Of a stretch of 64,000 nt of DNA, positions 7,848 through 29,988 are shown in pieces. Below the pieces are notes generated by a model, which saw only the letters and a program-made list of their open reading frames with translations, searched no databases and was not told where the DNA came from. A program made the position numbers and the translations under genes. The DNA is from Pedobacter aquae. GTDB lineage: Bacteria; Bacteroidota; Bacteroidia; Sphingobacteriales; Sphingobacteriaceae. The stretch lies in NCBI RefSeq assembly GCF_008195825.1, contig NZ_CP043329.1, positions 558,001 to 622,000 of the forward strand. Direction: 5' to 3'. The number at the start of each line of letters is the position of its first letter. Positions within the stretch are counted from its first letter, which is position 1.

Positions 7848-7851
7848 CTAT

Positions 7852-10286: not shown

Positions 10287-10290
10287 TTGA

Positions 10291-11693: not shown

Positions 11694-11921
11694 AGGGAAT
11701 AAATACCTAATAGTTAAGCTAAATGGGGCTTATAATCCTTTATAAATGTTAACCAATAAAATCGTTCTGAATTTGCTATTATTGAATATGCTTATTTGAA
11801 TAGGGGTTAATTAATTAAAAGAATAGAAACATCAGAAAGAGATTTATTTTTCAGCGTTATTTAGTCAGTTATAAGAACGCAAATTAATTTAATAAGTTAT
11901 TTTTCTATACGGATTCTGGTA
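11694..11921. other. intergenic region between convergent genes
   Basis: A very AT-rich gap between the abiH stop and the stop of the kinase gene. No strong terminator hairpin and no gene are visible. Confidence 0.5.
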
Positions 11922-12986
11922 TTATCTATGAGCCGTCGCAAAAAGTGATGAAATCTTTCTGACACCCAAGTCATTATGTGAGAATGTTTTTACCCTATTA
12001 CCTAGATTTATAATATGTTTCGATGAGGAAACAATATGTGAAATCATTAAAATTAATTCTTGCCGAGGCACTTCATACATTAAACCCCTCGCACCCTCAA
12101 ATGTGCAGTTCATAGCGCTTAATGCTTGCCCAAAATGTAATGCAAATTCAATTTTATCTGTACTTAGCTCTGATAAATTGGAACCTTTATTCTTAAAAAG
12201 ATTCATTATAATTCCAGAGGTTAACCAATCGCCAGCTCCTGCTGAATCTATTACATTTTCTATTGAATATCCTGCAAGTTTTGTCCATGATTTTTCACCT
12301 TTTTTTCTATACTTCAATCCAAGTGAACCTAAAGTTTGGATTTCTAACGGCACAGAGGCGACGGGATATAACAAATCATATTCTGGAATTCTGTCTTGAG
12401 CAAACTTTAACACATCGGCTAATTCCAATGACTGTTGAAATCCTTTTTGATCTTTTACACTTGAAGGTTCAAAGAAAATAGTTGTTCCAGTTGCTTTATA
12501 TGCTTTAGCGAGATCTATTGAAGCTCTATTTATACGATCAAAGTAAAAGACATTTGAATGTGGTACTGTTTCGATAATCGTAGGAACAGATTTGGCTAAA
12601 CATGGCTTATAAGACGGCAAGTATTTTCCATCTTCTGGATTACGAAATTCAAAACGATGTTTTGGATCGCCTTTTTTATCCTTTAAAATGCGATGAATAA
12701 TGACAGGTGTACTTCCTGTTTCTGTAATTTGTAATAGGTCGTCCTTGACATTCCATTTTTGCAAGTCTTGAAAAAGTAAGTCTCCGGCTACATTATTCGA
12801 TAACCTAGCAATCGGATATGAATTCCAACCAAGATAAGATAAAATCGTCATTACATTACCACAAGATCCACCGGCTAGGAATTGAGCTTGATTATTCCCT
12901 TCAAAGCCAATTATAACATCCAGAGCAACTAATCCATTACCTACACAAGTAGGTACTATTGTACTATTTAAAGCTTCATTCTTCAT
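11922..12986 (-). CDS. PfkB-family sugar or nucleoside kinase
   Basis: The protein of about 354 residues is ribokinase-like: FLAGGSCGNVMTILSYLGW near the N-terminus is the PfkB substrate-side motif, DRINRASIDLAKAY lies in the middle, and DSAGAGDWLTSGII near residue 250 is the second PfkB signature with the catalytic Asp of GAGD. It should transfer phosphate from ATP to a sugar, nucleoside or similar alcohol; the substrate cannot be deduced. It is the last gene of the operon. The start overlaps the previous stop; ATG at 12986 (11 bases overlap) or 12995 is possible. In the operon it likely acts on the product or precursor of the PRTase and SIS-HAD enzymes. Confidence 0.88.
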   Translation of the reverse strand: MKNEALNSTIVPTCVGNGLVALDVIIGFEGNNQAQFLAGGSCGNVMTILSYLGWNSYPIARLSNNVAGDLLFQDLQKWNVKDDLLQITETGSTPVIIHRILKDKKGDPKHRFEFRNPEDGKYLPSYKPCLAKSVPTIIETVPHSNVFYFDRINRASIDLAKAYKATGTTIFFEPSSVKDQKGFQQSLELADVLKFAQDRIPEYDLLYPVASVPLEIQTLGSLGLKYRKKGEKSWTKLAGYSIENVIDSAGAGDWLTSGIIMNLFKNKGSNLSELSTDKIEFALHFGQALSAMNCTFEGARGLMYEVPRQELILMISHIVSSSKHIINLGNRVKTFSHNDLGVRKISSLFATAHR

Positions 12987-14132
12987 ATGGATCACCAGTC
13001 AGCCAAATTACAAAAAGTTCAGAGGATTTATTGAGGTCTTGAAAACTTTCTTCATTTTCTAAAACATATCCTTGAGAATCTATATTAACTACGCCAACGA
13101 GACTATGTGTACTATTATTGTTTATTTCGTAGGCTGCCAATAAAGTGCCTATGGAGAGCAACTTACTTGAAAATGTTGATAAAGCTGCTCGACAACTATT
13201 TAGAACTTTTAAGGAATTTGTATAATTAGTTATCGCACTATGAATTATTCGATATGCTTCAAATGGATTCTGTTCAGGGACATACATAATATTCTGTGGT
13301 TCAATTCCTAATTTGTCCAAAAGCAAATCATGATAATTGATTAACAAAGAGTCTGGTCTTCTCGGATCTTTTGCAGGGAAAGGAAATAGTGGACATACTT
13401 CATCAGGCTTTAAATCATCATTTGCTTTTTCAATATGCTTTTTCTTATCTTCGCCAAGAATTGGCAGCCAAATTAAAGGTTCCTCTCGCTCATTTTTGGG
13501 TTTAATGCCTCCCATAAACCCCATTAAAAATTTAGACTCCTGATCAAGGCCTTGCTCTTTTATACAAGCATCCAATGCAGCATTTTCTGCTACTGTAACC
13601 ATTAAATTAATTTTTTTTGTTTATCTGGTTGTGCATCAATTAGTGTTAATAATTTACCTGTCAAAGAGAAATATATTCCACGAGGTAAAGCGCTAATATC
13701 TACAATAATCTCACTATACTCTTCAATATCTCTAAAATCTTTAATTATGTTTGCAGCTTCTCTATCGCCAATACGACGTTTTCTATTACCTTCTTCTTTC
13801 CATAAACTAATGTTAGCTTCTTCAATTTTCTCTTGATTAATTAACGATGTTAATTCACCATAATTCTTATCTACATAACTTTTATATTGATGTGAAGTTG
13901 AGCCGCTACCTTCATCAAAACAAATAAGTTTACATGTAAGGTCTATTTCACACTCTAAATCTATTATTTGTTTAATTACAAAATTCATCCGTACATCAAA
14001 ACCCTTCCCCATAATTAATAGAACCTTTCTTTTAGTGCCATCTGAGAAATGATTTTTTAATAATTGAATTGCCTTATCTGTAGCTGAGAGCAGATAGGGG
14101 CTCCATCGAAGTTGTCCCATTATTTTAACCAT
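12976..14132 (-). pseudogene. uncharacterised operon protein, frameshifted at an A8 run
   Basis: Two frames join into one protein of about 385 residues. The first part (14132-13602) ends in LIDAQPDKQKKLI. With one more A in the run at 13611-13618, it would read on as KKINLMVTVAENAALDACIK into the second part (13602-12976). The N-terminal half looks Rossmann-like (KVLLIMGKGFDVRMNF, then IIVDISALPRGIYFSL). The C-terminal half has conserved-looking stretches (IWLPILGED, CPLFPFPAKDPRRPDSLL, EQNPFEAYRII, SSKLLSIGTLLAAYE). I do not recognise the family. It overlaps both neighbours (13 and about 11-20 bases). Whether the shift is real or a sequencing error is open. Confidence 0.75.
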
Positions 14133-16009
14133 TTTAATAAATCATCAGACTTCAATGATCTCCAACCTCCATATCCGAGAGGAAGATTAAATTTCACACA
14201 CAGCCATCGATTTAGGTAATATACCGTTGTACTTTCACTACCTTTTTTTCCTTGACTAATCGTCCTGCGTTCTAATAAATTATAAGATATACAAGTCGCC
14301 AAGACATCAACTAAAGGTCTAGCAACCTCCTCTTCTAGCCAATATCTTTCTTCAATTAATTTCATTTTATTTGGTGCCTTTATTGCAAATCCAGTAACAC
14401 CTGGCGCATAAGGAATTGTTGGTCGATTTGTTTCCTTAAAGGCATATTCTTGGAATTTTTGCAATAATTTAATAACCAACTTAGAATGAGGAATTAATCT
14501 TGGCAATTCATCCCAACGATTTTCGACAGATCTTCTTAAAATTTTTTCTTGAACTTCAGTGGGGAGAATAATGTTTTTAGAAGCAATTTTATTCGACAAC
14601 ATCGACTCAAATAAATCACCACTAAATTGCAAAAACTGGTCTATATTAGATGATGAAATCTTAACTAATCTTTCAAAACTGAAATAATATGGAATTTTAT
14701 TCTCTATAGCAAGGAAATATTCAGTCGCATTCTGAATTTCACTTGTAATTAATGCATCCAATTGTTGGACAGTCATTGGAACATCCATTGTTAATTGCCC
14801 AACATTCATATTTTTATTTGCTAAAATTTCAGCACTCCTAGCAATACGAGCTTTCTCAAAAGAAGTACCGTCATGGGATTTTAGATAAAGAATCCAATCA
14901 TCAAACTTCGAGGTGTATTCAGAAAAATACTCTAAGTTTTTTAAGCTCTTCTCAAACCCATTAATAAAATTTTGATTGAAGGTTACTTCATTGATATTCA
15001 CCTCTAAGTTCTCTTCAAAGCTAGTGACATCTTCTGTTGAAACATTTGCCCTCCTTTCTGCAATATTCTGTGCAATAGCTCGAAACTTACTTTCTTTATT
15101 CTGCCAAATCTCCTCTAAATTAATCTCATTATAATCTCGATCCATAAACGAGCCAAGGCTATCTTCATTACTTAAAGCCTCTAACCTTTCGCTAATCCAA
15201 ATTGACTGATTACCTCTTTTTTCAAGTATAAATTTAAGCAATAACGTTCTTTGAGTAGCTGAAAGCTTATGAGTATCATCAAACATAAAGAGTATTCTAT
15301 TACATATGTTATTACCAGAAAAGGTAATATTTGTAACATTAAGAGCATAAAATGCAAATAATTCGTCGTGTCCTTCAGGTTGAATTTGTTCAATCGGCAA
15401 AAAACTGTCCATTGCATCAAACACCTTTTTCTCAATGTTTTCAGCCCAGATATATAATTCCTTTCCAGTACATGGAAAACTTATGTTCTTAAAATAATTA
15501 TGTTCATTAGTATATGAAATTGAAATTTTATCAAGATCGGATGGAAAATCGCTTTGTTTGAGTTGGATAATTCCTCTAATTGTAGCAGTGATAACTCTTG
15601 CATTTATTAATGCAAAGAACAATCTTTTCTTCTGAGCATCAGAAATAGCTAAATCTTCTAAATTTTCATAGTTTCGAGTACAGTGCAAACTTACACCCAA
15701 TAGATTAATCTTATCGTTATCTACTACATGTAATTTTTTCAAAAATTCACGAAGTTCTTTTAAAGCCGTTTGGGATTTACTATTGAATAGCGTAACCAGA
15801 GTTGTTGGTTCGAAAATACGAAGCAGCGATGTTTTTCCTGCTCCTGGAGAACTTCTAATGAAAAGAATATCATTCCAAAGTGATTGTTGCTTATCTTTTT
15901 CAACAAGTGATTCAAGAACATTAGGACTATAAATCCTAAGAAAACTTGCATCGGAGTCAATTTTTTCGGAATTTCTTAACTTGAATGGATTTCTAAGCCT
16001 GATTGTCAT
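14120..16009 (-). CDS. P-loop ATPase, ORC-CDC6/AAA-like, of a predicted conflict operon
   Basis: The 629-residue protein has a Walker A motif SPGAGKTS at residues 54-61 and a Walker B LFMFDDTHKLS with the acidic pair at 244-245. A likely arginine-bearing segment follows (SIWISERLEAL). The C-terminal part ends in a basic, winged-helix-like region (ERRTISQGKKGSESTTVYYL, then NRWLCVKF). I recall AAA families of ORC/CDC6 type being catalogued from predicted prokaryotic conflict loci together with PRTase domains; this I could not check. It overlaps the PRTase stop by 4 bases and the next gene by 13. In the operon it is the likely NTP-dependent switch or sensor. Confidence 0.8.
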   Translation of the reverse strand: MTIRLRNPFKLRNSEKIDSDASFLRIYSPNVLESLVEKDKQQSLWNDILFIRSSPGAGKTSLLRIFEPTTLVTLFNSKSQTALKELREFLKKLHVVDNDKINLLGVSLHCTRNYENLEDLAISDAQKKRLFFALINARVITATIRGIIQLKQSDFPSDLDKISISYTNEHNYFKNISFPCTGKELYIWAENIEKKVFDAMDSFLPIEQIQPEGHDELFAFYALNVTNITFSGNNICNRILFMFDDTHKLSATQRTLLLKFILEKRGNQSIWISERLEALSNEDSLGSFMDRDYNEINLEEIWQNKESKFRAIAQNIAERRANVSTEDVTSFEENLEVNINEVTFNQNFINGFEKSLKNLEYFSEYTSKFDDWILYLKSHDGTSFEKARIARSAEILANKNMNVGQLTMDVPMTVQQLDALITSEIQNATEYFLAIENKIPYYFSFERLVKISSSNIDQFLQFSGDLFESMLSNKIASKNIILPTEVQEKILRRSVENRWDELPRLIPHSKLVIKLLQKFQEYAFKETNRPTIPYAPGVTGFAIKAPNKMKLIEERYWLEEEVARPLVDVLATCISYNLLERRTISQGKKGSESTTVYYLNRWLCVKFNLPLGYGGWRSLKSDDLLKWLK

Positions 16010-17111
16010 TCTTTATGTCTAGTAACTCTTGGAAATAAACCTGTAAACTTTTTATCTGCTGGTAGCCAAAGAATTGGTAAGCTATTATTCGGCGTATTGT
16101 GATTTAGTACTAAAGGTAGTGCACATTCATTGAAACCTAGATATGGCTTACCTGTCTGACCAACTTCATAATGCCCATCGATAATTGATTCGTCAAAATA
16201 ATTATCGTATTTAGTCAACTCAATAAATTTTCTGTCATCTAATACCTGTCGAGACACACTCTTATCAATTACTTGTACTGCTGAAACTGAGTGCTCAAAT
16301 TCTCTTTTATTTTTAACTTTCCATTTAGTTATTTCAGAATCTAAATAGTCAATTGCAGACTTTGTTGCCACATAAATATTGTATGAACGCTTAATAGTTT
16401 TATATCAATCAAGTCACCTAATACTACATCATCTTCTTTTTCCTTAACTTTATAAAGTAAATTAAGAAATTTTAAGATTTTACCTTTTTCTTCATCAACT
16501 CTGAAATAGCTTAATCCGCTAGCTGTAAAGTCGTCAATTAAATAAATAGAGCTGAATTTGGAATTTTGACCAATTGCCTCTGATAATTTTTCAAGCATAT
16601 CATTTTGCTTTTCTTTCGAAATATAATATGATGAAAATATTTGTTCATTATCTATGTTGCTAGACCTTCTTAATTGATCGATCTTTGCACCATCACTTAA
16701 ACCCAAAAAAAGCGATTTACGTTTTACATGGGAGTAAGTTTGATCTTTATGAATTTTTGTAATTAAATGATGACTCACGCTCATTAATTCTGCTGCTTTA
16801 ACAGTTAACAAGGGATCAATCTTTTCATAGAAACAAATATTTATCAAATGTCTAATTTGTTCTGAGCTGATAAATATTAGATGCTCCTTAATGAATTTAT
16901 ATGCAATATTTCTTTCGGAAGCATTTTCAAATTGATTTAACCAGTTTACTAAACTTTCTGTAAACCTCATTCCAGTTGAATATTGTTGGTATTCATCATA
17001 TTTTAAGTTAGCCAAGGCTTGAATGAGTGGTCGTTCTATATCGATCTCTGCTTGATTCCAATTCATTAACTTGACTAGAATTTTCTCTGCTAGTATATTA
17101 TTCATAGTCAA
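16006..17111 (-). pseudogene. phosphoribosyltransferase-like protein (PRTase-CE type), frameshifted
   Basis: The N-terminal frame (17111-16341) carries SSIYLIDDFTASGLSYF near residues 187-203; LIDDFTASG (191-199) is the PRPP-binding loop of type I phosphoribosyltransferases. The frame then derails after LLSVHTIF at the T-run around 16374-16376. One extra base gives LLSVHTIFYVATKSAIDYLD and leads straight into the second frame (16371-16006), which ends FNECALPLVLNHNTPNNSLP, ILWLPADKKFTGLFPR. The combined length of about 368 residues and the late ALPLVLNHNTPNNSLP block suit a single enzyme. The reaction would exchange pyrophosphate of PRPP, or cleave a ribosyl-phosphate bond; the acceptor is unknown. 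Confidence 0.82.
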
Positions 17112-19004
17112 AAATTAATCCCATATTACCAGCTTTTAAAGACTTTAAGTAAATCAGACAAGAATCTGCATTATTAACTGATTTCGGAGATATGTTCCAA
17201 CAAGTATTCATATCCGTAGACACTTCATCTACACTTAAGGAAAAAGGATAGGTAAGAAGTTCAAAATCATTTCCTGGATAACGGCCTTTATCACCAATAC
17301 ATAAACAATAATTGGAAATACCTTTTTTAATTAACTCATTTTCACAATAAGCGATTACATTAAGTTTTGATACTTTTGGCCTAACAACAATATCTATTGA
17401 ACGACTGGATTCTAATATAATGAAACCTGTATCTTTAGAATCCATCACTAAATTATATAAAGCTGGTTTGATAAAACGCCAATCTTGTCCGTCAATAATT
17501 TCAACAGTTAGTTGGTCAGGTCTTAAAGAGAGACTTAAAAATTCATTTATATCAGAATCTTTGAGTTCCTTATAAATGTTTTCTAAAACGACTGCATTTT
17601 TACGTTCAACATTTGGGAATTTATCTGATGATAAAAAGCCAATGTCTGAACCATTGTAATAACCAATAATTATATTTTCATGAAGATTTTTATCAATGAT
17701 TAATTTCTTCAAATCGTTTTTAACAGATTGGCCTCGACCTGTAACAATTGCTATCAAATAGCCTAATTTTATAATTCTTTCGATTTCATTGATAATATCA
17801 GTATCTGGACCATCAAGCCTTCTTCTATCAGAACATAATGTCCGATCATAATCAAGAACTACACAGCCAAATTCTACTGACTTAATTTTTTTTAAGAAAT
17901 TTGTGTATGCAAGTTCCCATCTTCTTAAGGTCTTGTAATTCAAACTGCTAAGTAATATTGGATGAATTTTCCGTGTAATAGCAGTTGCCTTTTTATTATC
18001 AAACAGTTTATTTTTTTTAATAGACTAGCATAACTCAAGTTGTATAGTTTACTTCCATAATTAGGAACCCCAGGTCTTCCTGGGTCTATAGATTGTTTTT
18101 CTCCAATATTATCTACAAGATGAAAAGATTGAATTAGTAAATCTATAGTTGAAAATGCACCACTATTTTTAGAATTAAGTTTGAGAACAGGAATATCTTT
18201 TGGTAATAATTGTAGCGTTTTTTCTGCCAATTGCTCATCATCAGGATTTATCAGTGAGATTATGACTGAATTATCTTTCCTTTTATCAAACCAATGATGT
18301 CTGCCATGTCCGAAATTACGATAATCTGAAAGTAGAACACTTCCTAAGGCTGCCTCAGAAAATTTAGACTCAATATCAATCGCAACAGGTTTAGACCATC
18401 CACTATAAAGAACAATATAAGTGGTTTCTTTTATTATAGATTTTGAAAATCTATTTATATCTTCTAGGTAGACCTTTTTACTTGCTAATTTTAAATTCTT
18501 AGTTTCATTACCATAGGCTCTACAGAGAAGTATAAAAAATGCAACTAATGAATTAGATGCTAAGAAACCGTCTTTCCCAGCAGATAGAGAGAAAGCGAAA
18601 TTTTCAGCTATACTAGTTTTTGCTGAAAATGTTTTTAACGGTGAATTTTCCTTAGTGCTAATACTAATTACTTTGTTTGGCTCCTGTGCAATTATTGAAT
18701 TAAATGCTAATAAAATATCCTTGTTCTTGCCACTTGCACTAATAATAAGAACATTAATTTTTCTGAAAATATTTATAGAAGATTGAACTTCTAAGGGAGT
18801 AATTGCTTTAGCAATATTTCCTGTTTGTTGATGAAGGGCCTCAGCAAAATAACATGCACTTAATGAACCTCCCGACCCAACAGCAATTAGGGGAAATGTC
18901 AATAGCGCCTGATATTCGGATGTGAAATTTGATAAATCAATTTCATTAATCTCTTGTATTGTATGTGGAATAATTTCTAATTCTTTTTTGAAAGGTTTTC
19001 CCAT
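17098..19004 (-). pseudogene. SIS sugar isomerase-HAD phosphatase fusion, frameshifted
   Basis: The first part (19004-17940) is a SIS protein: AVGSGGSLSACYFAEALH at residues 41-58, LIISASGKNKDILLAF, and DGFLASNSLVAF, as in sugar-phosphate isomerases. Adding one A to the run at 18011-18018 replaces its odd tail with LFDNKKATAITRKIHPI, LLSSLNYKTLRRWELAYTNF and continues without a stop into the HAD part, whose motifs are VVLDYDRTLCSD (nucleophile DxDxT), TGRG and GDKGRYPGNDFELL. Without the correction the HAD part would need a TTG start at 17943 overlapping the SIS stop by 4 bases. The fused reading gives about 635 residues. Predicted activity: isomerisation and dephosphorylation of a sugar phosphate. 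First gene of the operon. Confidence 0.8.
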
Positions 19005-19078
19005 TTTAGTTGATGTTTTTCAATATTAATTTTTTTAGCATGATCAATATGATATGTAATAATTGTAATATAAGACTT

Positions 19079-19209
19079 TTAATTTCTTCTCCCAATTATG
19101 GCTTCGAATCTCTCCGGTTTAATGGAAATTATCACTTTTTTTGCATCTTCTTCATTTTTTAGGTAAAATTCTATGATTTTTTAAGTCTAAGCTTAAATAA
19201 ATTATTCAT
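19079..19209 (-). pseudogene. small protein gene, frameshifted, upstream of the SIS-HAD operon
   Basis: From ATG at 19209 the frame reads MNNLFKLRLKKS and stops. One extra A in the A6 run (19177-19182 on the top strand) gives MNNLFKLRLKKIIEFYLKNE, then EDAKKVIISIKPERFEAIIG and a TAA at 19079-19081, 43 residues in all. The length of 131 bases is one short of 44 codons, consistent with a single lost base. The function is unknown. It lies between the cyclase-like gene and the SIS-HAD gene. Confidence 0.4.
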
Positions 19210-19253
19210 AGTAATGATATTGCTGTCATTATACAATTTGCTTTACAGAGAAT

Positions 19254-20072
19254 CTAGTTATCAGAAGGGGCAATTAAATTATTCAAATCATCTAATTCTC
19301 TATAAACCATATCTTTTATTTTTGAAGGTTTTCCTATGTTGAATTTTCTTAACATCCACATGTATTTCATGCGAATTCCTATATCTGTTCTTTTAACCCC
19401 ATTCCTTATTAATTGCCTTAATTTTTGATAATATTTAATTTCATCACCATCATTTAAATAATTAGCCACGTCTGAAAAATAATTTATATAATATGTGTTA
19501 TCAAAGTCAATTTCAAAAGTTTTATGAAAATCATAATCTTTTACAGTATAGACGCTATCGCTTAACTCATTTTCTTTTGCCATCATTTCCATAATATCAG
19601 GGTCAATTGTTATACGAGGATACAAAGCTGATTTACTCTCTAGATCATATGCTTCATTCATTGCGGGACCTAAGATAACATCGGGTTGGTGAATTAATTT
19701 TCCAAAAACAATTCCTCCACGAAGTAATATCCCATATTCAATGAGTTTAATCTGTATGATTTTTAAAGTTTCAAATACTTTGAGCAAACCAATACTGTAA
19801 TCTTTTCTTAAAGAAAGGACTATTGAATCAGAAAAAAAAGTAGTGATTAAGGAATAGGGAGCTTCTCCACTTTTATCTATTTTATCAAATTCCTTTTTTA
19901 TTAACTTTAAAGCATTAACTATGTTAACCAATTTTTCCTTATTAACTTCACCACTTTTATCAATTGTATCATTAATGAAATCTCTAAAAGCTAGAATATC
20001 GATAAAGGCAATGATTCTTTCCTCATAAAAGATTTCTTCATTGGAAGAATCTAAGATGTTTTTATAATTCAT
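19254..20072 (-). CDS. nucleotide-cyclase-fold protein of unknown activity
   Basis: The 272-residue protein has the layout of a class III nucleotidyl cyclase domain: IIAFIDILAFRDFI (first strand with Asp), LITTFFSDSIVLSL (second metal Asp in SDS), and LRGGIVFGKL...ILGPAMNEAYDLES, matching the 'vriGih.G...GpavN.A.rLe' block. The Asn of the Asn/Arg pair is present but the usual Arg position has Asp, so purine cyclase activity is doubtful; a pyrimidine cyclase, ligand sensor or inactive fold are options. It is the last gene of a small operon and precedes the SIS-HAD operon on the same strand, so it may take part in the same defence island. Confidence 0.72.
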   Translation of the reverse strand: MNYKNILDSSNEEIFYEERIIAFIDILAFRDFINDTIDKSGEVNKEKLVNIVNALKLIKKEFDKIDKSGEAPYSLITTFFSDSIVLSLRKDYSIGLLKVFETLKIIQIKLIEYGILLRGGIVFGKLIHQPDVILGPAMNEAYDLESKSALYPRITIDPDIMEMMAKENELSDSVYTVKDYDFHKTFEIDFDNTYYINYFSDVANYLNDGDEIKYYQKLRQLIRNGVKRTDIGIRMKYMWMLRKFNIGKPSKIKDMVYRELDDLNNLIAPSDN

Positions 20073-20082
20073 TTGTAGGACT

Positions 20083-20457
20083 TTAAAGTTGATGGGTTTT
20101 TAATGTTTTCTCAATAACCCCACTACTCACCAACAAAGCAAACATAGGGGAACGCTTTCTATAAACTTTACTTTCTCTAAAAATAGGTTTAGAGGTTGAG
20201 GTATTAAAAGTTTCCATTTTCATTAGTCCGATAATAATTCTAATAAAATCTTCTAATGTTATTATTTCTGGTTTACCATCATTTCTTGTTTTTACAGAAA
20301 AAGAAATTTCGCTTTCCGTAATATAATTAATATTGTATGGGACTTTATCTTTTATGCTTTTTATAATTACGTCATTAGATAAACCATTTTGGATAAATTC
20401 CCAGATTTTTTCTGGTGACGCATCTTTGCATTTAACAGTAAAATGATATCTGTCCAT
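20083..20457 (-). CDS. uncharacterised small protein upstream of the cyclase-fold gene
   Basis: From the ATG at 20457 the protein has 124 residues, beginning MDRYHFTVKCKDASPEKIWE and ending VSSGVIEKTLKTHQL. A TTG at 20475 is possible but would overlap the preceding frame. Charged alpha/beta pattern, no signal peptide. The family is not recognised. It is 10 bases upstream of the cyclase-fold gene, so the two are very probably cotranscribed. Confidence 0.65.
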   Translation of the reverse strand: MDRYHFTVKCKDASPEKIWEFIQNGLSNDVIIKSIKDKVPYNINYITESEISFSVKTRNDGKPEIITLEDFIRIIIGLMKMETFNTSTSKPIFRESKVYRKRSPMFALLVSSGVIEKTLKTHQL

Positions 20458-20465
20458 ATTTTCAG

Positions 20466-20726
20466 TTATTTCCAACGAGTTAGTAATTCAGAATTTGAGT
20501 TGTTGTATTCAAGTATTAATCTATCATAAAGTGAATTGTCAATCTTATAGCCCTGATTTATTCAAAATTTTAATGTCTTATTGTCCAATGTTTCTACAGT
20601 GAAATAATCTTTTTTACTATTGATTTTACTGATATTTTCATAAATTAATAACTCAGTTTCTTTTCTTAGCCCATACATTTCTTGCAGTACCTTATTTAAA
20701 TTATCTTTAAGTAAGATGTCTATCAT
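20466..20726 (-). CDS. small protein with an in-frame TGA
   Basis: From ATG at 20726 the frame encodes 54 residues (MIDILLKDNLNKVLQEMYGL and so on, to TVETLDNKTLKF), then TGA at 20562-20564. The same frame continues as INQGYKIDNSLYDRLILEYN, NSNSELLTRWK up to TAA at 20466-20468, just 8 bases before the next ATG. The continuation is coding-like, so the TGA may be a TGG-to-TGA change. Either a 54-residue protein is made or the gene is broken. Confidence 0.45.
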
Positions 20727-21044: not shown

Positions 21045-21287
21045 TTATTTAGTATTATTTTTAAATGGAAGTATCTGACTATTACTCCAATCACTTTGAT
21101 GGAGTAATTCTCTTATATCAACCCTTAAAAATTCAGCAATTTTATTTAAAGTATTTAGTGTAGGCTGTTGTTTATTGTTAACCCATCTAGATACAGTTTC
21201 TTTTTCTACGCCAAGAAACTTTATTAAATCGCTATTTCCAGCGCCCTTTTCTTTTAATACCTCCGCTATGCGATTAATTTTAGTCAC
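21045..21287 (-). CDS. XRE/Cro-type helix-turn-helix regulator
   Basis: The 80-residue protein is a single HTH_3 domain: RIAEVLKEKGAGNSDLIKFL, then GVEKETVSRWVNNKQQPTLN with the recognition helix, TLNKIAEFLRVDIRELL. It lacks a sensory domain. The gene reads leftward; 22 bases upstream is a 19-base palindrome followed by a rightward -7 box, so it probably represses a divergent rightward transcript that covers a structured RNA. Confidence 0.88.
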   Translation of the reverse strand: MTKINRIAEVLKEKGAGNSDLIKFLGVEKETVSRWVNNKQQPTLNTLNKIAEFLRVDIRELLHQSDWSNSQILPFKNNTK

Positions 21288-21309
21288 TTTAAAAAAAAAT
21301 TATTTTATA

Positions 21310-21341
21310 GTTGATTTTTAAAATCAACAATTGTATATTTG
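21310..21341 (+). promoter_or_regulatory. operator palindrome and -7 box, divergent to the XRE gene
   Basis: 21310-21328 is a palindrome around one base (GTTGATTTT/AAAATCAAC). TATATTTG at 21334-21341 is a perfect -7 box for rightward transcription. The palindrome lies where the -33 contact would be, fitting repression by the neighbouring XRE protein. Confidence 0.6.
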
Positions 21342-21371
21342 TTTAGTAATTAGTTTAATAGCGATAACTTT

Positions 21372-21660
21372 AGTAGGGATTAAATCCTACTTAACGATGT
21401 CACTCAAACAAGAAAACCGCTAAATTTTCCTCTTGAGTTGACCGTGAGTTCGTTTTCTATTGGATTTATATATCTTTACGATATTATCCAGTAGGGCGAA
21501 CTTCATGTCAGTCTTGAGGAACCCTGATTTCGATTAGGGAGGTTCTTAGCGGTACCACTTGTAAGCATTGAAGTTCGCCCTATTGGTTTCTCACCAATTC
21601 GGTTTTCTTCCTTTGCTTTTTGGGTACACATCGTTTTCATAGATATCATAAAATGAAAAC
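21372..21660 (+). ncRNA. candidate structured RNA downstream of the XRE-linked promoter
   Basis: Four consecutive hairpins follow the promoter at 21334. H1 (21372-21391) pairs AGTAGG with CCTACT. H2 (21399-21442) pairs GTCACTCAA with TTGAGTTGAC. H3 (21488-21586) has 18-base outer arms CCAGTAGGGCGAACTTCA and TGAAGTTCGCCCTATTGG with one mismatch, and an inner stem AGGAACC/GGTTCTT topped by CTGAT-TTCG-ATTAG, a UUCG tetraloop. H4 (21633-21660) pairs GTTTTCAT with ATGAAAAC and would bury the ATG of the next small frame. I cannot match it to tmRNA, RNase P, 6S or a retron; no reverse transcriptase is near. Confidence 0.5.
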
Positions 21661-21796
21661 ATCTACATTTAACCCTTTTGTAAAACAGCATTTAAACGTT
21701 TCCCATAGGCGTTATGGCAAAGCTACAACCCTCGCAGTCGTAGTCAATCATCCTTTTCAAAATCCCATTATTCGCGTCATCAAATCGCCAACTTAG
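21653..21796 (+). CDS. possible 47-residue peptide after the structured RNA
   Basis: ATG at 21653 opens MKTSTFNPFVKQHLNVSHRR, YGKATTLAVVVNHPFQNPII, RVIKSPT with TAG at 21794-21796. Basic and without membrane segment. The start codon is inside the 3' arm of hairpin H4. The family is not recognised; support is only the position and an untroubled frame. Confidence 0.3.
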   Translation: MKTSTFNPFVKQHLNVSHRRYGKATTLAVVVNHPFQNPIIRVIKSPT

Positions 21797-22090
21797 GATA
21801 ACATCAGCCAACAGCAAGCGCATGTAACGGTCTTTAAAAATAACCGTAAGCGCTAGCTATGTATCAAACTATCCTAAATTTTAATCACTAAAAGCAGAAG
21901 AATATGCGGTTTTTATACCCAATGGGGCAGCTATGTCCAAAATTTACCCTTCTACTACTTCAAATATATCATAATTCTGTATTAATAAAACAGGCTTTAG
22001 GGAAATATTTTTTAACTAATACTTATGAAAGGGTAAATGTCCTCCAATCACTAAGATTTAGCGCTCACAACATTTCATTTATAACATACA
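21797..22090. other. AT-rich leader before the tlpA-like gene
   Basis: No convincing gene. A 95-codon frame (21904-22191) overlaps the pseudoknot and the start of the next gene and has no coding character. A short hairpin (ACGGT/ACCGT) is seen at about 21830-21850. Confidence 0.5.
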
Positions 22091-22151
22091 GCAGGCTTTA
22101 TACAGCCGCCCCAGCCTGCAAGCTAGTTAATGTGTTAATTAACGGGGCGGC
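22091..22151 (+). promoter_or_regulatory. candidate H-type RNA pseudoknot in the tlpA leader
   Basis: Stem 1 pairs GCAGGCT (22091-22097) with AGCCTGC (22113-22119). Its loop contains GCCGCCCC (22105-22112), which pairs perfectly with GGGGCGGC (22144-22151). The two stems interlock with no base between the 5' arm of stem 2 and the 3' arm of stem 1, the geometry of a coaxially stacked H-type pseudoknot. If not simultaneous, the stems are alternatives. The end is 32 bases before the ATG at 22184, so control of translation or transcription is possible. Confidence 0.5.
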
Positions 22152-22183
22152 TTCTTTAGGTATCAAAAGAAAGGGTGTGGTCT

Positions 22184-23404
22184 ATGCCTAGAATTCGTTC
22201 AATTTTTATGGTTTTGATATGCATACTAGTTGTGGTGTCATACAGCAAAAAAGTCAAAGCCCAGCAGGCTTTGCAAATAGGAGACAGCATCCCTCAAACC
22301 TTATGGGATTTAAAGCTGCAAACCTTTAACCACCCTGAGGGCAAAAACACCATCACTTTAAATGAGTATAAAGGCAAACTCATCATCTTAGATTTTTGGG
22401 CTACTTGGTGTGGCAGCTGCATTGCAGCCATGCCCAAATTAGATAGTTTACAGCAGCAGTTTAGCAAAGACATCATGATCTTGCCTTTAAGCAAAGAGAC
22501 TAAGCAAAAGCTAAGCACTTTTATAACTAATAATGAAAAGCTACAAAAGCTGTCTTTAACTTATGTTGCCGAGGAGCAAGCCTTGCATCAGGCTTTTCCA
22601 CATCAGATAGTCCCTCATGTGGTATGGATAGGTAAAGATGCTAAGGTTTTACACATCAGCAGTAGTGCTGGTGTAAACAAACAGCAATTAAGCAATGCTT
22701 TGGCAGGCAAAGCTTTTAAAGAAAGCATCAAAGCAGATTTACTAAACTTTAACCGCTATGAAAGTTTACCTGCACATGCTCCGCTTTTAACAGCAAGCAA
22801 GCTTACCGCTTATTTAAAAGGTGCACCATCTTATTTGGGATGGCCTAAAAACCAAGATACCCTACGCTATTTCGCTACCAATGCCAGTAGGCTATCGCTA
22901 TATGCACTTTATAGCCCCATGCTTTTAGAGATGCCTAGAAATCAACTCATCTTTGAGGGAGGCCTGCTTGCTCAAGATTTCCTAGCTCTAGGAACGGCAA
23001 AAGAAGCAAGCCTTTATTGTTTTGAGCTGCTGTTAAACCCTAGCTTAAAGGATAAAGCATCCGCTATCATCAAACAGCAATTAGACGGCAGCTTTGGGCT
23101 ACAAACCCAGTATGAAAAGAGGAGCATGCCTTGCTATATCATCAAAAGTAAAGGAGCGCCATTACCATATCCTCAGCAGCCTAAAAATAGCTTAGCAGGC
23201 TGGCTACGATTGTATAATAAAGAATCAGCACATATCCCCATCCTCAATGAAAGTGGGCAACAGCCTAACATCCCTAAGCTGGCAGTAAATGCAACAGTGG
23301 TAGAAATTAATGAAGCACTGGCAACAGTGGGCCTTTACCTGCAAGAAGCAGAAAGAACATTAGAAGTATTTGTATTTAAACCTGATCAAACCCCTACACG
23401 ATGA
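22184..23404 (+). CDS. TlpA-family thiol-disulfide oxidoreductase
   Basis: The protein (406 residues from the ATG at 22184) begins with a signal peptide (SIFMVLICILVVVSYSKKVKA) and a thioredoxin-like domain with LIILDFWATWCGSCIAAMPK; the CxxC cysteines are residues 76 and 79. The remaining 250 residues have no recognised domain. A GTG at 22175 is a less likely start. The gene's end overlaps the start of the SusC-like gene by 4 bases (ATGA), so TlpA, SusC and SusD form one operon, an arrangement common in Sphingobacteriaceae. It probably handles disulfides of exported proteins or peptides taken up by the receptor. Confidence 0.88.
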   Translation: MPRIRSIFMVLICILVVVSYSKKVKAQQALQIGDSIPQTLWDLKLQTFNHPEGKNTITLNEYKGKLIILDFWATWCGSCIAAMPKLDSLQQQFSKDIMILPLSKETKQKLSTFITNNEKLQKLSLTYVAEEQALHQAFPHQIVPHVVWIGKDAKVLHISSSAGVNKQQLSNALAGKAFKESIKADLLNFNRYESLPAHAPLLTASKLTAYLKGAPSYLGWPKNQDTLRYFATNASRLSLYALYSPMLLEMPRNQLIFEGGLLAQDFLALGTAKEASLYCFELLLNPSLKDKASAIIKQQLDGSFGLQTQYEKRSMPCYIIKSKGAPLPYPQQPKNSLAGWLRLYNKESAHIPILNESGQQPNIPKLAVNATVVEINEALATVGLYLQEAERTLEVFVFKPDQTPTR

Positions 23405-26400
23405 AGAAAAAATTAACGCTTATCATCCTATTATTACTACCTGCCACCCTCATGGCTTGGCAAGCCAGCATCAGCGGCAAGGTAAGCAGTATCAACCATA
23501 ACGAGCCTCTGGCAGGCGTCATCATCAAAGTTAAAGGAAGTCCGCAAGTCACTACCACAGATAGCTTAGGTAAATTCAGCATCAGGGTAAATCAAGAGAA
23601 CGAGGTATTAGAGCTAAGCTACCTAGGTTTCAAACCGCTTAGCGTCAATGCTAAAATAGGGCAGGTTTTAAGCCTACAACTCAGCCCAGATATCAATGCC
23701 TTACAAGAAGTAGTAGTATCAACAGGCTTGCAACGCTTACCTAAAGAACGCTCAACAGGTTCTTTTGTACAAATCAATCAAGAGCTTTTGATAGGCAGGT
23801 AAGTCCAGATGTCATCAGCAGGCTAGAACATATTACCCCAGGCTTACTGATAGATAAAAGAGGCGTAAGTACAGAAACCATCAGCATAAGAGGTAGAAGT
23901 ACTGTTTTAGTAATAGCAGCCCCTTAATTGTACTGGATAATTTCCCTTATGAAGGAGATATCAATAACATCAACCCCAATGATATTGCCAGTGTAACCGT
24001 TCTTAAAGATGCTGCAGCCGCCTCTATCTGGGGGGTAAGAGCAGGAAATGGCGTTATTGTCATCACCACCAAAAAAGGCAATAGCAATAGCCCTTTACAG
24101 GTGAGTATAAACAGCAACTATACCTTAGGGCAGCGGCCAGATATGAGGGATTTACCTTTAGTTCCGGCAGCACCTTACCTAGCTTTAGAAAGAGATCTTT
24201 TTAGCAGAGGTTTTTTTGATGCCGCTTTGCAAGACGGACAAGTGCCTTTAAGCATAGGAGTACAATTACTACAGCAAGAAAGAAACGGCAGTGCAGCAGA
24301 GCAGGAGGCAGCAAGGCAAGCTTTACAAGCTTTGGAAGCTAAGGATTACCGGGACGATTTAAACCGCTATGTTTACCGGCAAAGTGCTTTACAACAATAT
24401 GCCCTAAATATTAGAGGAGGAAGCCGCTATGTACGTTATTATGTTTCTGGTGCTTATGACGATCAGCAGAGTAATCTGGATGCTGGCAATCAACGTTATA
24501 CTTTTAGGAGCGAGCAAAACTTTGAGCTACATCCTCAAGTCAATCTAAATACGAGTATCCTTTACAGTCAGGTACGTAACCAAGAAGGGCAATTACCTTA
24601 TGGCAGTTATGCTGGTTTAGCAACGTATAGCAGTTTTGCAGATGCCCAAGGCCTGGCACTTGCCGTTCCGAGGGATTTTAGCGAGCCTTTTAAAGCGGAT
24701 GCATTAGACAGAGGATTGCTCAACTGGCAATACCGCCCTTTAGAGGAGTTGGGTTTTAACAGAGCCATCAGCAAGAACCAAGACCTACTCTTACAAACAG
24801 CCATCAACTACAAGTTTTGGAAAGTTTGGCGACTAGAAACCAGCTACCAATACCAAAGTAATGCCGGACAAAGGCTGCATACGCTGGAAGAAGAATCTTA
24901 TCAGGTACGAGACGCCATCAATCGTTATAGCAGCATCAACAATGGGCAGGTAAACAGACCCATACCACTAGGAGCTTTTTACGACCAGCAAAACAGCCGC
25001 TTGTTTAGCCATGCCCTGCGCTCCCAGCTTCATCACCAAAGTACATGGGCCAAGCATGAAATTACAGGCTTATTAGGTGCCGAGCTTAGAGCCTTAAGAA
25101 ACACCTCACAAAGTAGCCGCACTTACGGCTATGATGCCGATATCTTAACCAGCATACCAGTAGATTATCAAACCGTTTTCCCACTTTATGGAAGAAACAG
25201 TGGTTCTGGTAGAATACCAGACCGCAGCAATTTTACAGAACGCTTAAACCGCTATGTCTCCTTTTATGGGAATGCTGCTTACAGCTATGCTAAAAGATAT
25301 ACCCTTTCTTTAAGTGCCCGCCAGGATGGCTCTAACCTCTTTGGCGTGAGTAGCAACCAAAGGCTGGTACCTCTATGGTCGGCTGGTTTAGCATGGAATC
25401 TTTCCTCAGAACCTTTCTATAAATTAGACTTCCTGCCTTACCTTAAAATACGCAGTACTTATGGTTTTAGTGGCAATTTAAACCCCAATGTATCTGCCTT
25501 ACCTACCGTGATGTTTTACAATAACGGTAACCTCAATAATAGGCCTTATGGCATCATCAGAAATCCTGCAAATGAAAACTTAAGGTGGGAGAAAACAGCC
25601 ATGCTCAATTTAGGGATAGACTTTGCCTTAAAAGGCAATGCCCTAAGAGGGACTTTGGAGTTTTATCGGAAAAGAAGTACAGATTTACTCGGTTTCATGC
25701 CCTTAGACCAAACCACAGGAGCACTTTCGCCCTTACAAAGTTTTAGCTACCAAGGGAATTCAGCTACGATGAGTGGAAGAGGTGTAGATATAGAACTGGA
25801 GAGCATCAATAGCAGCGGAAAACTCGGCTGGACAAGTAATCTAGTGTTCAGTTATGCAGCTACCAAGTTAGAAGAGTATTTAGCAGCAACTACAGATATC
25901 AATGCTTATCTAAATGGAGGTTTAACCATTTCGCCCATCATCGGAAAACCCCTATATGCCATACATGCTTATCGCTGGGGAGGTCTTGATCCGCTTAGGG
26001 GTAATCCTCAGGGATTTGTAGCAGGCGAATTAAGTACAGATTATACACAACTGGTAGCCCGTAGTACCGCAGAAGATTTGGTCTATAAAGGTTCTGCCGT
26101 ACCCCTATATTTTGGAGCTTTAAGAAATAACTTTAGCTATGCAGGATGGTCGCTATCTTTAAACCTCAGTTACCGTTTAGGCTATTTCTTTAAGCGCAAC
26201 TCTGTCAATTATACAGCCTTGTTTCAAGGTACCGCAAACCATGCAGACTACCTGCAACGCTGGCAGCAGCCGGGAGATGAAAGCCGAACAAAAGTGCCTT
26301 CCCTTATTTATCCGGCTAATGCCAATAGAGATAGTTTTTACTCCCGTTCCGAAGTATTGATAGCCCCGGCAGACCATATCCGTTTGCAAGATATCAATAT

Positions 26401-26569
26401 CACTTACAGCTTTCAGAAATTGGCTGAGAAGCAAAAGCGGCTGAGCATTTATGCTTTTGTGAATAACATTGGGATGCTTTGGAAGGCAACATCAGCTCAG
26501 GTAGATCCCGATTATGGGGAAATCACCATTCCGCGTACCTATGCGATAGGTTTTAGATATGGATTATAA
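23401..26569 (+). pseudogene. SusC/RagA-type TonB-dependent outer membrane receptor, two frameshifts
   Basis: The first frame (23401-23802) has a signal peptide, a CarboxypepD_reg-like domain (ISGKVSSINHNEPLAGVIIK) and the TonB-box region (LQEVVVSTGLQRLPKERSTG). Restoring one A near 23790 gives [39 protein letters not shown]; restoring one T in the run 23905-23908 gives [20 protein letters not shown] and joins the long frame with the plug end ([20 protein letters not shown]) and barrel. The whole would be about 1056 residues, normal for SusC. Two one-base losses in 120 bases with otherwise intact coding suggest sequence error. It works with the SusD-like protein after it. Confidence 0.85.
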
Positions 26570-26579
26570 AATAAGAATC

Positions 26580-27941
26580 ATGAAAAGAAATAATTTTAAA
26601 GGGTTAAATGTCTTATGCTTACTTGCTTTGTTAGGGAGTTTAGTAGCATGTACAGATTATCTGGATGTAAAGCCAGATAAAGCTTTGGTAGTACCTAACA
26701 CCGCCAGAGATTTACAAGGTTTATTAGATTATACCAGTAGGATGAACTCCTCTTATCCCGGTATACAGGAAGCTGCCACAGATAATGTGTTTTTACAGCC
26801 AGCAACCTGGCAAAACTTAGCCGATATCACTGCTAAAAATATATATGTTTGGAATGATGATGTGTTTAATAATAACGAACTAAACGAGTGGTCTTTACCT
26901 TATGTAACCGTTTTTTATGCCAATACCGTTTTAGATCAACTAGCTAAAATTGTAGCGCCAGAGCAAGAAAAGAGGAGGATGCGGGCAGAGGCTTTATTTT
27001 ACAGATCCTTTGCCTTTTATCAGTTGGCACAGCTTTTTGCCGCCCCTTATGAAGAAACAACAGCTAGCCAAACTTTGGGTATCCCGTTGCGTACCACGGC
27101 AGATATCAGCGCTAATTTTTCAAGGGCAAGCTTGAGGGAAACCTATGACCGCATCCTCGTGGATTTAAAAACAGCATCTGCTGCTTTACCCGTTCAAACC
27201 GAAGTTAAAACTACCCCTTCAAAACCTGCTACATTAGGTTTGTTGGCCAGAGTTTACCTGGCTATGGAGCGTTATCAGGAAGCTGAACTTTATGCAGACT
27301 CCTGTTTAAATTACCAAAGTACCTTGTTAGATTTTAAGCAAACAAACCTAAATGCTACCTATCCTTTTGCTCGTTACAATCCGGAAGTGATCTTTCATAG
27401 CACCACATTTGGTCGTACCGTATTATCAGTCACTTTTAGCAGGGTATCACCAGAACTATATGCACAATATCAAAATGGAGATTTGCGAAGAACAGGTTTC
27501 TTTATGAACAGGGCAGGTTTATTTTCTTTTAAAGGAAGTTATGATGGTACAGCAAGCTTGTTCAATGGCATAGCAGTAAATGAAATGCTACTCATCAGTG
27601 CAGAAAGTGCAGTGAGGAGAGGAGATACTGTAAAAGCTTTGGAAAGGCTTCATCAATTATTAAGAAATAGGTTTACAGTAGCTGCTTATCAAAAACTGGA
27701 GAGCAATCAAGTGCAACAGGTTTTAGATTGGGTATTACAAGAAAGAAGAAAAGAACTTTTGTTTAGAGGCTTAAGATGGACAGATTTAAGAAGGCTGAAT
27801 AAAGATCCACGTTATGCAAAAGATATCATTCGTGATATCAACGGAGAGCAGTATGTTTTAAAAGCCAATAGCAATCAATATGTTTTACCCATACCGATAG
27901 CCGTAGTAAATGGCGGAATAATTGTACAAAACCCGAGATAA
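26580..27941 (+). CDS. RagB/SusD family nutrient-binding lipoprotein
   Basis: The protein of about 453 residues starts at the ATG at 26580 with a lipoprotein signal (LLALLGSLVACTDYLDVKPD, Cys in the lipobox). It has the helical TPR-like SusD layout: RRMRAEALFYRSFAFYQLAQ, ATLGLLARVYLAMERYQEAE, and the C-terminal block RRKELLFRGLRWTDLRRLNK. It forms the surface lid on the SusC-like channel encoded just upstream. The first ATG at 26559 lies inside the SusC end and is disfavoured because the signal sequence starts at 26580. Confidence 0.9.
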   Translation: MKRNNFKGLNVLCLLALLGSLVACTDYLDVKPDKALVVPNTARDLQGLLDYTSRMNSSYPGIQEAATDNVFLQPATWQNLADITAKNIYVWNDDVFNNNELNEWSLPYVTVFYANTVLDQLAKIVAPEQEKRRMRAEALFYRSFAFYQLAQLFAAPYEETTASQTLGIPLRTTADISANFSRASLRETYDRILVDLKTASAALPVQTEVKTTPSKPATLGLLARVYLAMERYQEAELYADSCLNYQSTLLDFKQTNLNATYPFARYNPEVIFHSTTFGRTVLSVTFSRVSPELYAQYQNGDLRRTGFFMNRAGLFSFKGSYDGTASLFNGIAVNEMLLISAESAVRRGDTVKALERLHQLLRNRFTVAAYQKLESNQVQQVLDWVLQERRKELLFRGLRWTDLRRLNKDPRYAKDIIRDINGEQYVLKANSNQYVLPIPIAVVNGGIIVQNPR

Positions 27942-28403: not shown

Positions 28404-28606
28404 CGTAGATTTGGCTTTGCTACACCTCGAAGCCATAGAGTTTTACATGATGATGCCTACTCTTTTTAAGGGTTTTCGGCATTTCCCTATTCATAAGGCC
28501 TTATGAACAGGTAAAGAAAAGCGTGTAGAGGAACATAAAATGTTCCTTTACTTTTTTTTTGATTTTTTTTGCATTGCCATGAGGAATGAAGAAGTAATCT
28601 TTTTAT

Positions 28607-29040: not shown

Positions 29041-29988
29041 ATGGTAACAGGTATCGATTGTTCAAAGGATTATTTTGACATTGCAGTATTAAAAGAGGGT
29101 AAATTGACCTTCAAAAGTAGGTTTGCTAACAACATTAAGGGATTTATGGATATGCTGCCGCATGTTCAGGACACCCATGTTGTGATGGAAGCCACAGGTC
29201 CTTATTATTTCCAACTGGCAAGGTTTGTACACGATTCAGGACTCAGAGTTTCGGTAGTTAACCCCTTGATTATACGCAGGTATGCACAGATGCGAATGTC
29301 TAGGGCAAAGACAGACAGTAAAGATGCGATGGTTATAGCAGAGTTTGCCCAGATGACTAGTCCTAAGCTGTGGACACCTCCAACAGAAGAAATCCAGAAG
29401 ATCCGTAATCTGGAAACCTATCTTGAAGGTTTGAAACAACGTAGACAGATGTTATGCAACCAGTTACATGCATTTGAGTCTGCAGGTACAATAGAGCAGC
29501 TACTCTACAATGAAATAAAGGAAGAGGTTGAGAGCTACGATAAAAGAATTAAGGATAAAGAGTGTGAGATAGAAAAATTAATAAAGCAAAACTATGCAGA
29601 AATGGCTGTTAATATAAGAAGTATACCAGGAATAGGGCCTAGAAGTGTGTCTATGCTGATTATTGCCACAGATGGCTTCGGGATGTTTGAAAACTATAAG
29701 CAGGTCATATCCTATTTCGGACTGGCCCCAAGGATATATGAATCAGGAACAAGCGTAAAAGGCAAAGGGCATATCTGCAAAATGGGAATGGGCCAGATAA
29801 GAAAAGTGCTTTATATGGCTGCTACCTCAGCAATACGTTGTAATAAGGCTTGTAAAGAGTTATATGAAAGATTAAGAGGAAAAGGGAAACCTTATAGAGT
29901 AGCGCTGATAGCAGCAGTAAATAAACTTATTAAACAAGTATTTGCCATAGCAAAATCAGGTGAACCTTATAAAGCACAATTTGGCTAA
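29041..29988 (+). CDS. IS110-family DEDD transposase (recombinase)
   Basis: The 315-residue protein has the RuvC-like DEDD domain at the N-terminus (VTGIDCSKDYFDIAV with the first Asp, VVMEATGPYYF with Glu, RAKTDSKDAMVIAEF with two Asp) and the C-terminal Transposase_20 domain (RSIPGIGPRSVSMLI, then YFGLAPRIYESGTSVKGKGH, containing the likely nucleophilic serine, and RKVLYMAATSAIR). Both domains are whole, so the enzyme may be active. It cuts and joins DNA guided by the element's bridge RNA. Confidence 0.95.
   Translation: MVTGIDCSKDYFDIAVLKEGKLTFKSRFANNIKGFMDMLPHVQDTHVVMEATGPYYFQLARFVHDSGLRVSVVNPLIIRRYAQMRMSRAKTDSKDAMVIAEFAQMTSPKLWTPPTEEIQKIRNLETYLEGLKQRRQMLCNQLHAFESAGTIEQLLYNEIKEEVESYDKRIKDKECEIEKLIKQNYAEMAVNIRSIPGIGPRSVSMLIIATDGFGMFENYKQVISYFGLAPRIYESGTSVKGKGHICKMGMGQIRKVLYMAATSAIRCNKACKELYERLRGKGKPYRVALIAAVNKLIKQVFAIAKSGEPYKAQFG

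Follow-up and report, generated by a model that had tools for sequence, protein, structure and literature searches.

Upstream of a SusC/SusD operon in Pedobacter aquae lie a divergent regulator gene, a structured RNA, and a short peptide frame with a conserved end. We consider it fairly likely that this element is the 5' leader of the uptake operon, that it is under repressor control, and that it carries an RNA switch gating a leader peptide and readthrough of an attenuator. Comparison among relatives gives solid support, at the level of sequence, to the RNA structure, its pseudoknot, two alternative helices, the promoter, the peptide, and the position before SusCD. The element looks like an unrecorded gene-control device that sits beside anti-phage islands in many Bacteroidota and whose regulator is frequently exchanged. 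We analyzed it in a 64,000-nucleotide stretch of contig NZ_CP043329.1, called the window here, in whose coordinates positions are given. An earlier, sequence-only reading had described an XRE gene, a palindrome, and a densely folded RNA; to this we add that a SusC/SusD operon lies downstream, that the long hairpin is half of a switch, and that the regulator has been exchanged between relatives.

Layout of the Locus

The leftward gene proposed to encode an XRE regulator is an ORF at 21045 to 21287 (minus strand), divergent from the RNA. It starts with GTG and encodes an 80-residue XRE/Cro-type protein that lies above the Pfam cut-offs for both HTH_26 (41.5 bits; cut-off, 22) and HTH_3 (35.1 bits; cut-off, 23). 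The 19-base palindrome noticed earlier, GTTGATTTTTAAAATCAAC at 21310 to 21328, is perfect; it covers the -33 region of the rightward promoter and is probably, as a prediction, the operator of the XRE protein. The -7 box of that promoter, TATATTTG at 21334 to 21341 (plus strand), matches TAnnTTTG, and transcription is expected to start near 21346. TAnnTTTG has been described as the -7 box recognized by the main flavobacterial sigma factor, where it occupies positions -12 to -5 (PMC9723704).

The sequence from 21346 to 21660 folds at -98.8 kcal/mol, compared with -64.8 ± 4.8 kcal/mol in 100 shuffles (z = -7.1). Dense folding was therefore rightly claimed for this region, but the four successive hairpins into which it had been divided are not separate: they belong to one enclosed domain with a pseudoknot and two mutually exclusive long helices. 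In the window fold, a variable 5' hairpin, P0 (21372 to 21391), is followed by RNA domain 1 (21394 to 21634; model R1), which is closed by helix P1, formed by ACGATG at 21394 to 21399 and CATCGT at 21629 to 21634. Within the domain, stem-loop P2 (21403 to 21437; stem strands 21403 to 21407 and 21433 to 21437) feeds its loop into pseudoknot P3, where ACCGC (21416 to 21420) pairs with GCGGT (21549 to 21553). A second long-range pairing, P5, joins TTCCTC (21427 to 21432) to GAGGAA (21516 to 21521). Three strands make up the switch, namely, A (21447 to 21465), A' (21486 to 21505), and A'' (21569 to 21586); A' is common to both states and pairs with A in state 1 and with A'' in state 2. The 99-base element described earlier is found here, its 18-base arms (21488 to 21505 and 21569 to 21586) being 94% complementary. 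The inner stem, P4 (21522 to 21539), is likewise present in sequence and fold, but its supposed UUCG cap is a UUUCGA-type loop and not a strict cUUCGg tetraloop.

At the 3' end of the domain, an 8-bp hairpin, GTTTTCAT/ATGAAAAC (21633 to 21660), shares two bases with the 3' strand of P1 and holds the ATG of a 47-residue peptide (21653 to 21796, plus strand) that ends in IRVIKSPT-stop; a frame of this length with a buried start codon had been noted before. Another hairpin, TTAGGATA...TATCCTAA (21793 to 21877), follows the peptide and was recognized from the window alone. Directly before the downstream operon stands a terminator-like hairpin, GCCGCCCC...GGGGCGGC-TTCTTTA (22105 to 22158), whose fold is modest (z = -2.4; 3 of 200 shuffles were as good) and which is probably an attenuator. 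The feature seems to run past 21796, up to this hairpin.

The operon opens with a thioredoxin/TlpA-like protein (22184 to 23404; Pfam AhpC-TSA and Thioredoxin_8), whose start was picked by eye from the signal peptide. A SusC/RagA-type outer-membrane protein follows in a broken frame (23401 to 26569), and then a SusD protein (26559 to 27941; SusD-like_3, 122.4 bits against a cut-off of 27), all on the plus strand. The SusC region consists of two ORFs in different frames, 23401 to 23802, which matches CarbopepD_reg_2, and 24101 to 26569, which is without a Pfam match. Both pieces cluster by BLAST with ORFs of 1074 residues in two related genomes, G009 and G011, each of which has one long ORF, and the receptor is probably broken in the window strain.

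A Conserved RNA with Two Alternative Helices

Relatives were compared at 97 loci: the window, 16 loci from a DNA search, and 80 hand-picked covariance-model hits spread over the range of scores, which makes the set a selection from the hits. Covariation among these loci, without which the notion of a functional RNA would be hard to sustain, is present, and compensatory double-sided changes exceed those in controls, as would be expected of a conserved structured RNA of about 250 bases with a domain of about 240 nt. Over the whole model, 95.4% of pairs are standard, 44 of 47 pairs have double-sided changes, and 610 double-change cells are found, compared with 152 ± 13 after shuffling (0 of 500 shuffles reach the observed values); these figures come from an alignment fitted to the model. 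In a plain MAFFT alignment of the 97 loci, P1, P2, P3, A:A', and A':A'' all beat slid and shuffled controls in the percentage paired, and 0 of 200 shuffles reach their values. An early alignment in the right orientation had given 53 pairs with RNAalifold, 35 of them with compensatory changes.

Standard pairs reach 94.4% in P1 over the 97 loci and 92.1% in P2, which has 33 double-change cells. The P3 pseudoknot, which joins the loop of P2 to a far-off strand toward the 3' side, reaches 96.8% with 75 double-change cells, whereas its slid control attains at most 47.6%. The start-codon hairpin has 81.2% standard pairs, compared with at most 57.7% when slid, although its 19 double-change cells are fewer than those of the best slid control (27). 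For P5, support comes from the individual sequences, with a median score of 15.0 for a strand's own partner versus 10.0 for mismatched partners, but hardly from the alignment, where only 60.7% of its pairs are standard (up to 56.0% when slid). Two helices of the window were rejected as homologous features: P0 pairs at 54.4% in relatives, below its slid control of 66.9%, and P4, which is poorly aligned in relatives, pairs at 56.6%, compared with up to 60.5% when slid. G-U cells outnumber A-C cells by 490 to 128, which indicates that selection acts on the rightward RNA strand and not on folded DNA.

The long hairpin of the sequence-only reading, there called H3, is real and covarying, but it constitutes only half of a switch, in which A' pairs with either A or A''. 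Standard pairs make up 86.1% of A:A', with double changes in 13 of 15 pairs, and 91.4% of A':A'', with double changes in 18 of 18. At the 13 A' positions shared by the two helices, 333 cells are changed; both partners pair in 182, one in 101, and none in 50. Because A:A' and A':A'' cannot coexist, they imply that the RNA adopts two alternative states or, failing that, folds along an ordered path. State 1 may be no more than an intermediate in folding, as A':A'' is the stronger duplex in 74 of the 96 loci (of 97) for which energies were compared.

The earlier reading could match the RNA to no known class, and no Rfam 15 family matches the element. A scan of the whole window returned only RF02914 at 28454 to 28489, the loci of fourteen relatives yielded no family match, and a search of 21300 to 22200 at E values of up to 5 produced two hits far below gathering scores. 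The RF02914 match, a DUF805b RNA on the minus strand, lies about 550 bases before an IS110-family transposase (29041 to 29988); IS110 elements carry guide RNAs. Searches of an open-licence library yielded no description of this RNA; one study reports 64 structured 5' regions of Flavobacterium psychrophilum in a supplementary table (PMC9723704).

A retron had been discounted earlier, and no reverse transcriptase family was found among the 18 distinct window proteins scanned, a subset of the window ORFs; one weak match to PADLOC's PRTase_III-A covers 16344 to 17111. In the left flank of the copy in genome G186, a reverse-transcriptase-like protein was noticed by eye as the third gene beyond the regulator (L191:6467-7540). 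Nor does the arrangement resemble an antisense SusC sRNA, as an ORF of the SusC cluster lies downstream in the same sense at 89 of 97 loci and in the opposite sense at 0.

The Probable Leader Peptide and the SusCD Operon

The sequence-only reading offered a regulated RNA or a leader-controlled peptide; the two fit together, in that a conserved peptide comes after the RNA and has its start codon within a conserved hairpin. In relatives, the peptide keeps a constant position behind the RNA and has about 37 residues and an end of the form ...KN[VI]Ixx-P-x-stop, with the consensus K-N-[VI]-I-x-[SA]-P-[E/S]-stop in the 89 peptides (of 97) that were analyzed. At 95 of 97 loci there is a frame with P or Px at its end, compared with 1188 of 10903 background ORFs; this count is favored by the choice of ATG frames with such an end, and taking the first ATG after the model end gives 93 of 97. 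Between close peptide pairs, single differences are most frequent at the third codon position (426 of 867), a pattern that fits a coding frame with a variable body. Single-base codon differences are synonymous in 373 cases and not in 494, so only the end of the peptide is conserved, not its body. At L159, L111, and L141 the frame continues past the motif. Locus L017 (genome G081) has a second peptide end, KNVKRNPE-stop, just before the operon, roughly 100 to 150 bases ahead of the ORF at 2418, which suggests a duplication of the leader-peptide tail.

A second folded region follows the peptide and ends in a stem with a T-rich tail at 47 of 97 loci, compared with 26 of 485 mononucleotide shuffles; by the criterion used, the other 50 loci have no terminator-like stem. 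Only about 50 nt separate this stem from the start of the operon in the Parapedobacter/Olivibacter group (consensus of 10 loci). An ORF of the SusC cluster (at least 600 residues, same sense, within 8 kb) follows at 89 of 97 loci and SusD at 87. SusC/SusD is absent downstream from the other eight (L195, L196, L038, L218, L225, L235, L260, and L042), one of which, L042, has a contig that ends after 950 nt. At L195 and L196, the RNA and peptide stand before non-SusC genes of 271 and 365 residues. A second TAnnTTTG between the peptide stop and the next ORF is rare (6 of the 90 loci used, out of 97), and the operon is thus probably read from the promoter of the RNA, a search of this kind missing any promoters for another sigma factor before SusC. 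The order expected of an attenuator recurs in the promoter (94 of 97 loci), the short ORF (95 of 97), and SusC (89 of 97), whereas the terminator-like stem is found at only 47 of 97. The window genome has 31 SusD matches and one copy of the RNA, meaning that the leader marks one of about 31 such operons.

The Regulator, Its Probable Operator, and the Promoter

TAnnTTTG occurs within 160 nt upstream of the RNA at 94 of 97 loci, mostly at -42 to -61, compared with 117 of 1595 control windows. At 92 of 97 loci, a divergent ORF has its start no more than 220 nt away, versus 129 of 1622 random positions. The ORFs in this regulator slot fall into 14 BLAST clusters and are XRE-type where identified; among ten representatives, a Pfam HTH domain lies above the cut-off in three and below it in one, one has only a SnoaL-like domain, and five have nothing. 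By hhalign, cluster c7 can be aligned with the cluster of the window gene (84%), and the AlphaFold model for c7 (pLDDT 88.7) has an HTH domain like those of restriction-modification controllers and Stl. For clusters c14 and c12, hhalign gives only 18% and 10%, and the c14 model is poor.

A promoter palindrome is not a general feature of all loci and was dropped as such, 36 of 92 loci (out of 97) exceeding the 95th percentile of shuffles at the operator place. Several palindromes nevertheless recur within regulator clusters: CGCTATAGCG, of the CGCT(A/T)TAGCG type, in six of eight c12 loci; GCTCC..GGAGC in four of nine c13 loci; several related ones in c4; and a TGG..CCA type with low scores in three of five c16 loci.

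Distribution

When 150 relatives were searched at the DNA level, 32 genomes had matches at E ≤ 0.01, although many matches were short; the RNA core was present in 16 of these genomes, including the window's own, while G011 matched only in the right flank. G011 was considered as an empty site, a view dropped once the covariance model found a diverged RNA at the same place. Model R1 matched 100 of 301 sampled genomes of the window's family, Sphingobacteriaceae, with up to 6 copies per genome, and matches also occur in a few other families, including Flavobacteriales. In samples drawn from the class and from the phylum, the model matched 5 of 395 and 6 of 395 genomes, respectively; the two samples overlap, and family members are among them. 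Named genome records, scanned with a pattern, gave 109 stretches, with the RNA in at least 39 (39 of 80 among the matches listed). Carriers include Pedobacter, Sphingobacterium, Parapedobacter, and Olivibacter and, in the Flavobacteriales, Sinomicrobium, Salegentibacter, Flagellimonas (two records), Paenimyroides, and Flavobacterium. At six Flavobacteriales loci, the promoter and a divergent XRE-like ORF recur, as judged by eye, and SusC-like ORFs follow in four.

Module Exchange and the Defense-Like Flank

Comparison of 17 chosen pairs of loci revealed sharp borders in several; similarity breaks off where the regulator gene stops, close to the -7 box, and where domain 1 ends on its 3' side. 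The block common to the window and G009, for instance, extends over -348 to +1009 (regulator stop to first operon gene), with only scattered stretches shared beyond it. G202 and G302 have outer flanks that are 97% identical (91% just after the RNA), but a different regulator and RNA lie between these flanks (-597 to +241). Over +238 to +7067, G009 and G011 agree at 96%, while their upstream similarity is confined to 119 bases of the regulator gene (70%). In G329, two copies resemble each other only over +238 to +1399, and three of five Pedobacter pairs share only about -51/-58 to +607/+616 and have different regulators, the other two sharing more. Moreover, leader identity exceeds 0.85 in 32 pairs, yet in nine of these the RNA identity is only 0.52 to 0.62. 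Taken together, the swaps and the mismatch between RNA and leader identity indicate that regulator, RNA, and SusCD are separately exchangeable. At L226/L248, the left genes were retained while the regulator and RNA changed.

General coupling between regulator and RNA was not established. Over 92 of the 97 loci, their partial correlation is 0.135 given the leader, and that of leader and regulator is 0.158 given the RNA; this equal leader-regulator correlation singles out no RNA-regulator pair, and only the individual swap cases stand. Orthogonality of copies within one genome was not supported: regulator similarity exceeds 0.4 in 0 of 32 within-genome pairs and 23 of 634 between-genome pairs (permutation value, 0.31), and a same-cluster test ran counter to it, with 7 of 32 pairs inside genomes and 83 of 634 pairs across them.

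The genes on the left side of the regulator vary among loci and are rich in anti-phage functions. PADLOC families number 359 in 150 left-flank proteins versus 9 in 150 right-flank controls; these are counts of families, not proteins, and the right controls are shorter (mean, 209 versus 304 residues). For the left set, proteins over 900 residues and the main regulator clusters were set aside, and 150 of 188 proteins were used; on the right, 150 of 151 were used. In the window, a defense-like island with an HNH endonuclease and AbiH lies left of the XRE gene (4905 to 20475). PfkB, two CARF6 pieces, and a PRTase-like gene belong to a leftward operon in this island, and HAD, SIS, and ATPase-like neighbors were seen by eye or below the cut-off. 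A tRNA-Leu gene (1784 to 1867), close to the island's left border, was considered as the place where the entire block might have inserted; in G009 and G011, the tRNA-Leu region is on other contigs than the element.

A Proposed Mechanism and Its Rivals

In the mechanism that we infer, the divergent XRE-type protein would bind the palindrome over the core promoter and repress rightward transcription, and probably its own as well. Upon transcription, the nascent leader would fold into the pseudoknotted domain, with A' pairing early with A and later with A'', a choice on which any ligand might act. The state of the domain would be felt at closing stem P1, which abuts the start-codon hairpin of the leader peptide; since the two share only two bases, this coupling may be weak. 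Translation of the peptide, perhaps with a ribosome pause at its ...KN[VI]Ixx-P-E-stop end, would then decide whether transcription passes the terminator-like stem before the operon.

Several other readings need to be weighed against this one. An independent dual-function RNA would make SusCD a mere neighbor; its transcript of ~600 to 800 nt would stop at the terminator-like stem, encode the peptide, and work in trans as an sRNA or small-protein mRNA. The block shared by those three Pedobacter pairs, which extends from the promoter to just after the terminator-like stem, is what such a unit would look like, and the terminator-like ends and the eight copies without adjacent SusCD agree with it; however, SusC follows at 89 of 97 loci, a second TAnnTTTG is rare, and the Parapedobacter/Olivibacter operon starts close behind the stem, and we judge this reading unlikely. 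The leftward genes invite a different interpretation, a selfish or defense module in which the regulator accompanies an RNA-controlled, toxin-like peptide, as in type I toxin-antitoxin systems or phage-type immunity switches. The excess of PADLOC families on the left flank, the exchanged regulators, and the HNH, AbiH, CARF6, and PRTase-like genes of the window speak for it. Yet the peptide appears by eye polar and not membrane-like, left genes can stay while regulator and RNA change, and the RNA also precedes SusC in another order (four of the six Flavobacteriales loci), all of which leaves a defense module very unlikely. The sharp breakpoints could also mark a folded-DNA recombination site or insertion hotspot that recruits cassettes, with DNA hairpins giving the RNA-like pattern; this we hold to be highly improbable, given the excess of G-U over A-C, the conserved promoter, the coding character of the peptide, and a pseudoknot not expected of a cruciform.

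Returning to the leader of an uptake operon, a more speculative extension is that regulator and RNA form exchangeable specificity alleles, like phage immunity types, that tie expression of the SusCD receptor to the anti-phage island, such that disturbance of the repressor by a phage or mobile element triggers both sides. We think this quite unlikely. If true, the defense genes on the left would respond, while the RNA switch and leader peptide on the right would set the amount of receptor. The modular exchange of regulator and RNA beside anti-phage islands raises the question of whether surface receptors and phage defense are co-regulated. With the RNA present in 100 of 301 family genomes, these ideas are testable in cultivable Pedobacter and Sphingobacterium.

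Comparison with Known Systems

SusCD systems in Bacteroidota are usually described as controlled by ECF sigma factors, hybrid two-component systems, and antisense sRNAs. A pseudoknotted switch RNA in sense orientation, coupled to a conserved leader peptide, would be a level of control separate from these. Among antisense regulators, cis-encoded sRNAs of the DonS type control Bacteroides polysaccharide operons. The element would share with them RNA-based control of SusC-type operons in Bacteroidota, but its RNA is sense, lies in the leader, and is accompanied by a peptide and a regulator gene.

The regulator and its promoter recall XRE-type controllers and phage repressors such as C.Esp1396I and SaPI Stl, which likewise pair an HTH protein with a divergent promoter and a palindrome. 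An AlphaFold model of the L035 regulator, compared with the PDB, finds C.Esp1396I and Stl types (best E value, 0.0028, with none below 0.001; HTH-only TM score, 0.69 to 0.84 by target). Unlike in those systems, the promoter is followed by a structured leader with an uptake operon, and ORFs from 14 BLAST clusters occupy the regulator slot.

With the large leader RNAs and riboswitches of Rfam, the element has in common a pseudoknot, a closing stem, alternative pairing, and a start codon in a hairpin. It differs from them in lacking a family match and in having two alternative helices that share one strand of ~18 nt. Finally, leader-peptide attenuators of the tnaC/trpL type consist of a short ORF with a conserved end, a spacer, a terminator-like stem, and an operon, an order that the loci with a terminator-like stem (47 of 97) appear to share. 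Runs of one regulatory codon were not noticed in this peptide, and, unlike in tnaC or trpL, a 240-nt pseudoknotted switch RNA and a divergent, exchangeable regulator precede the short ORF, with the whole standing before SusCD.
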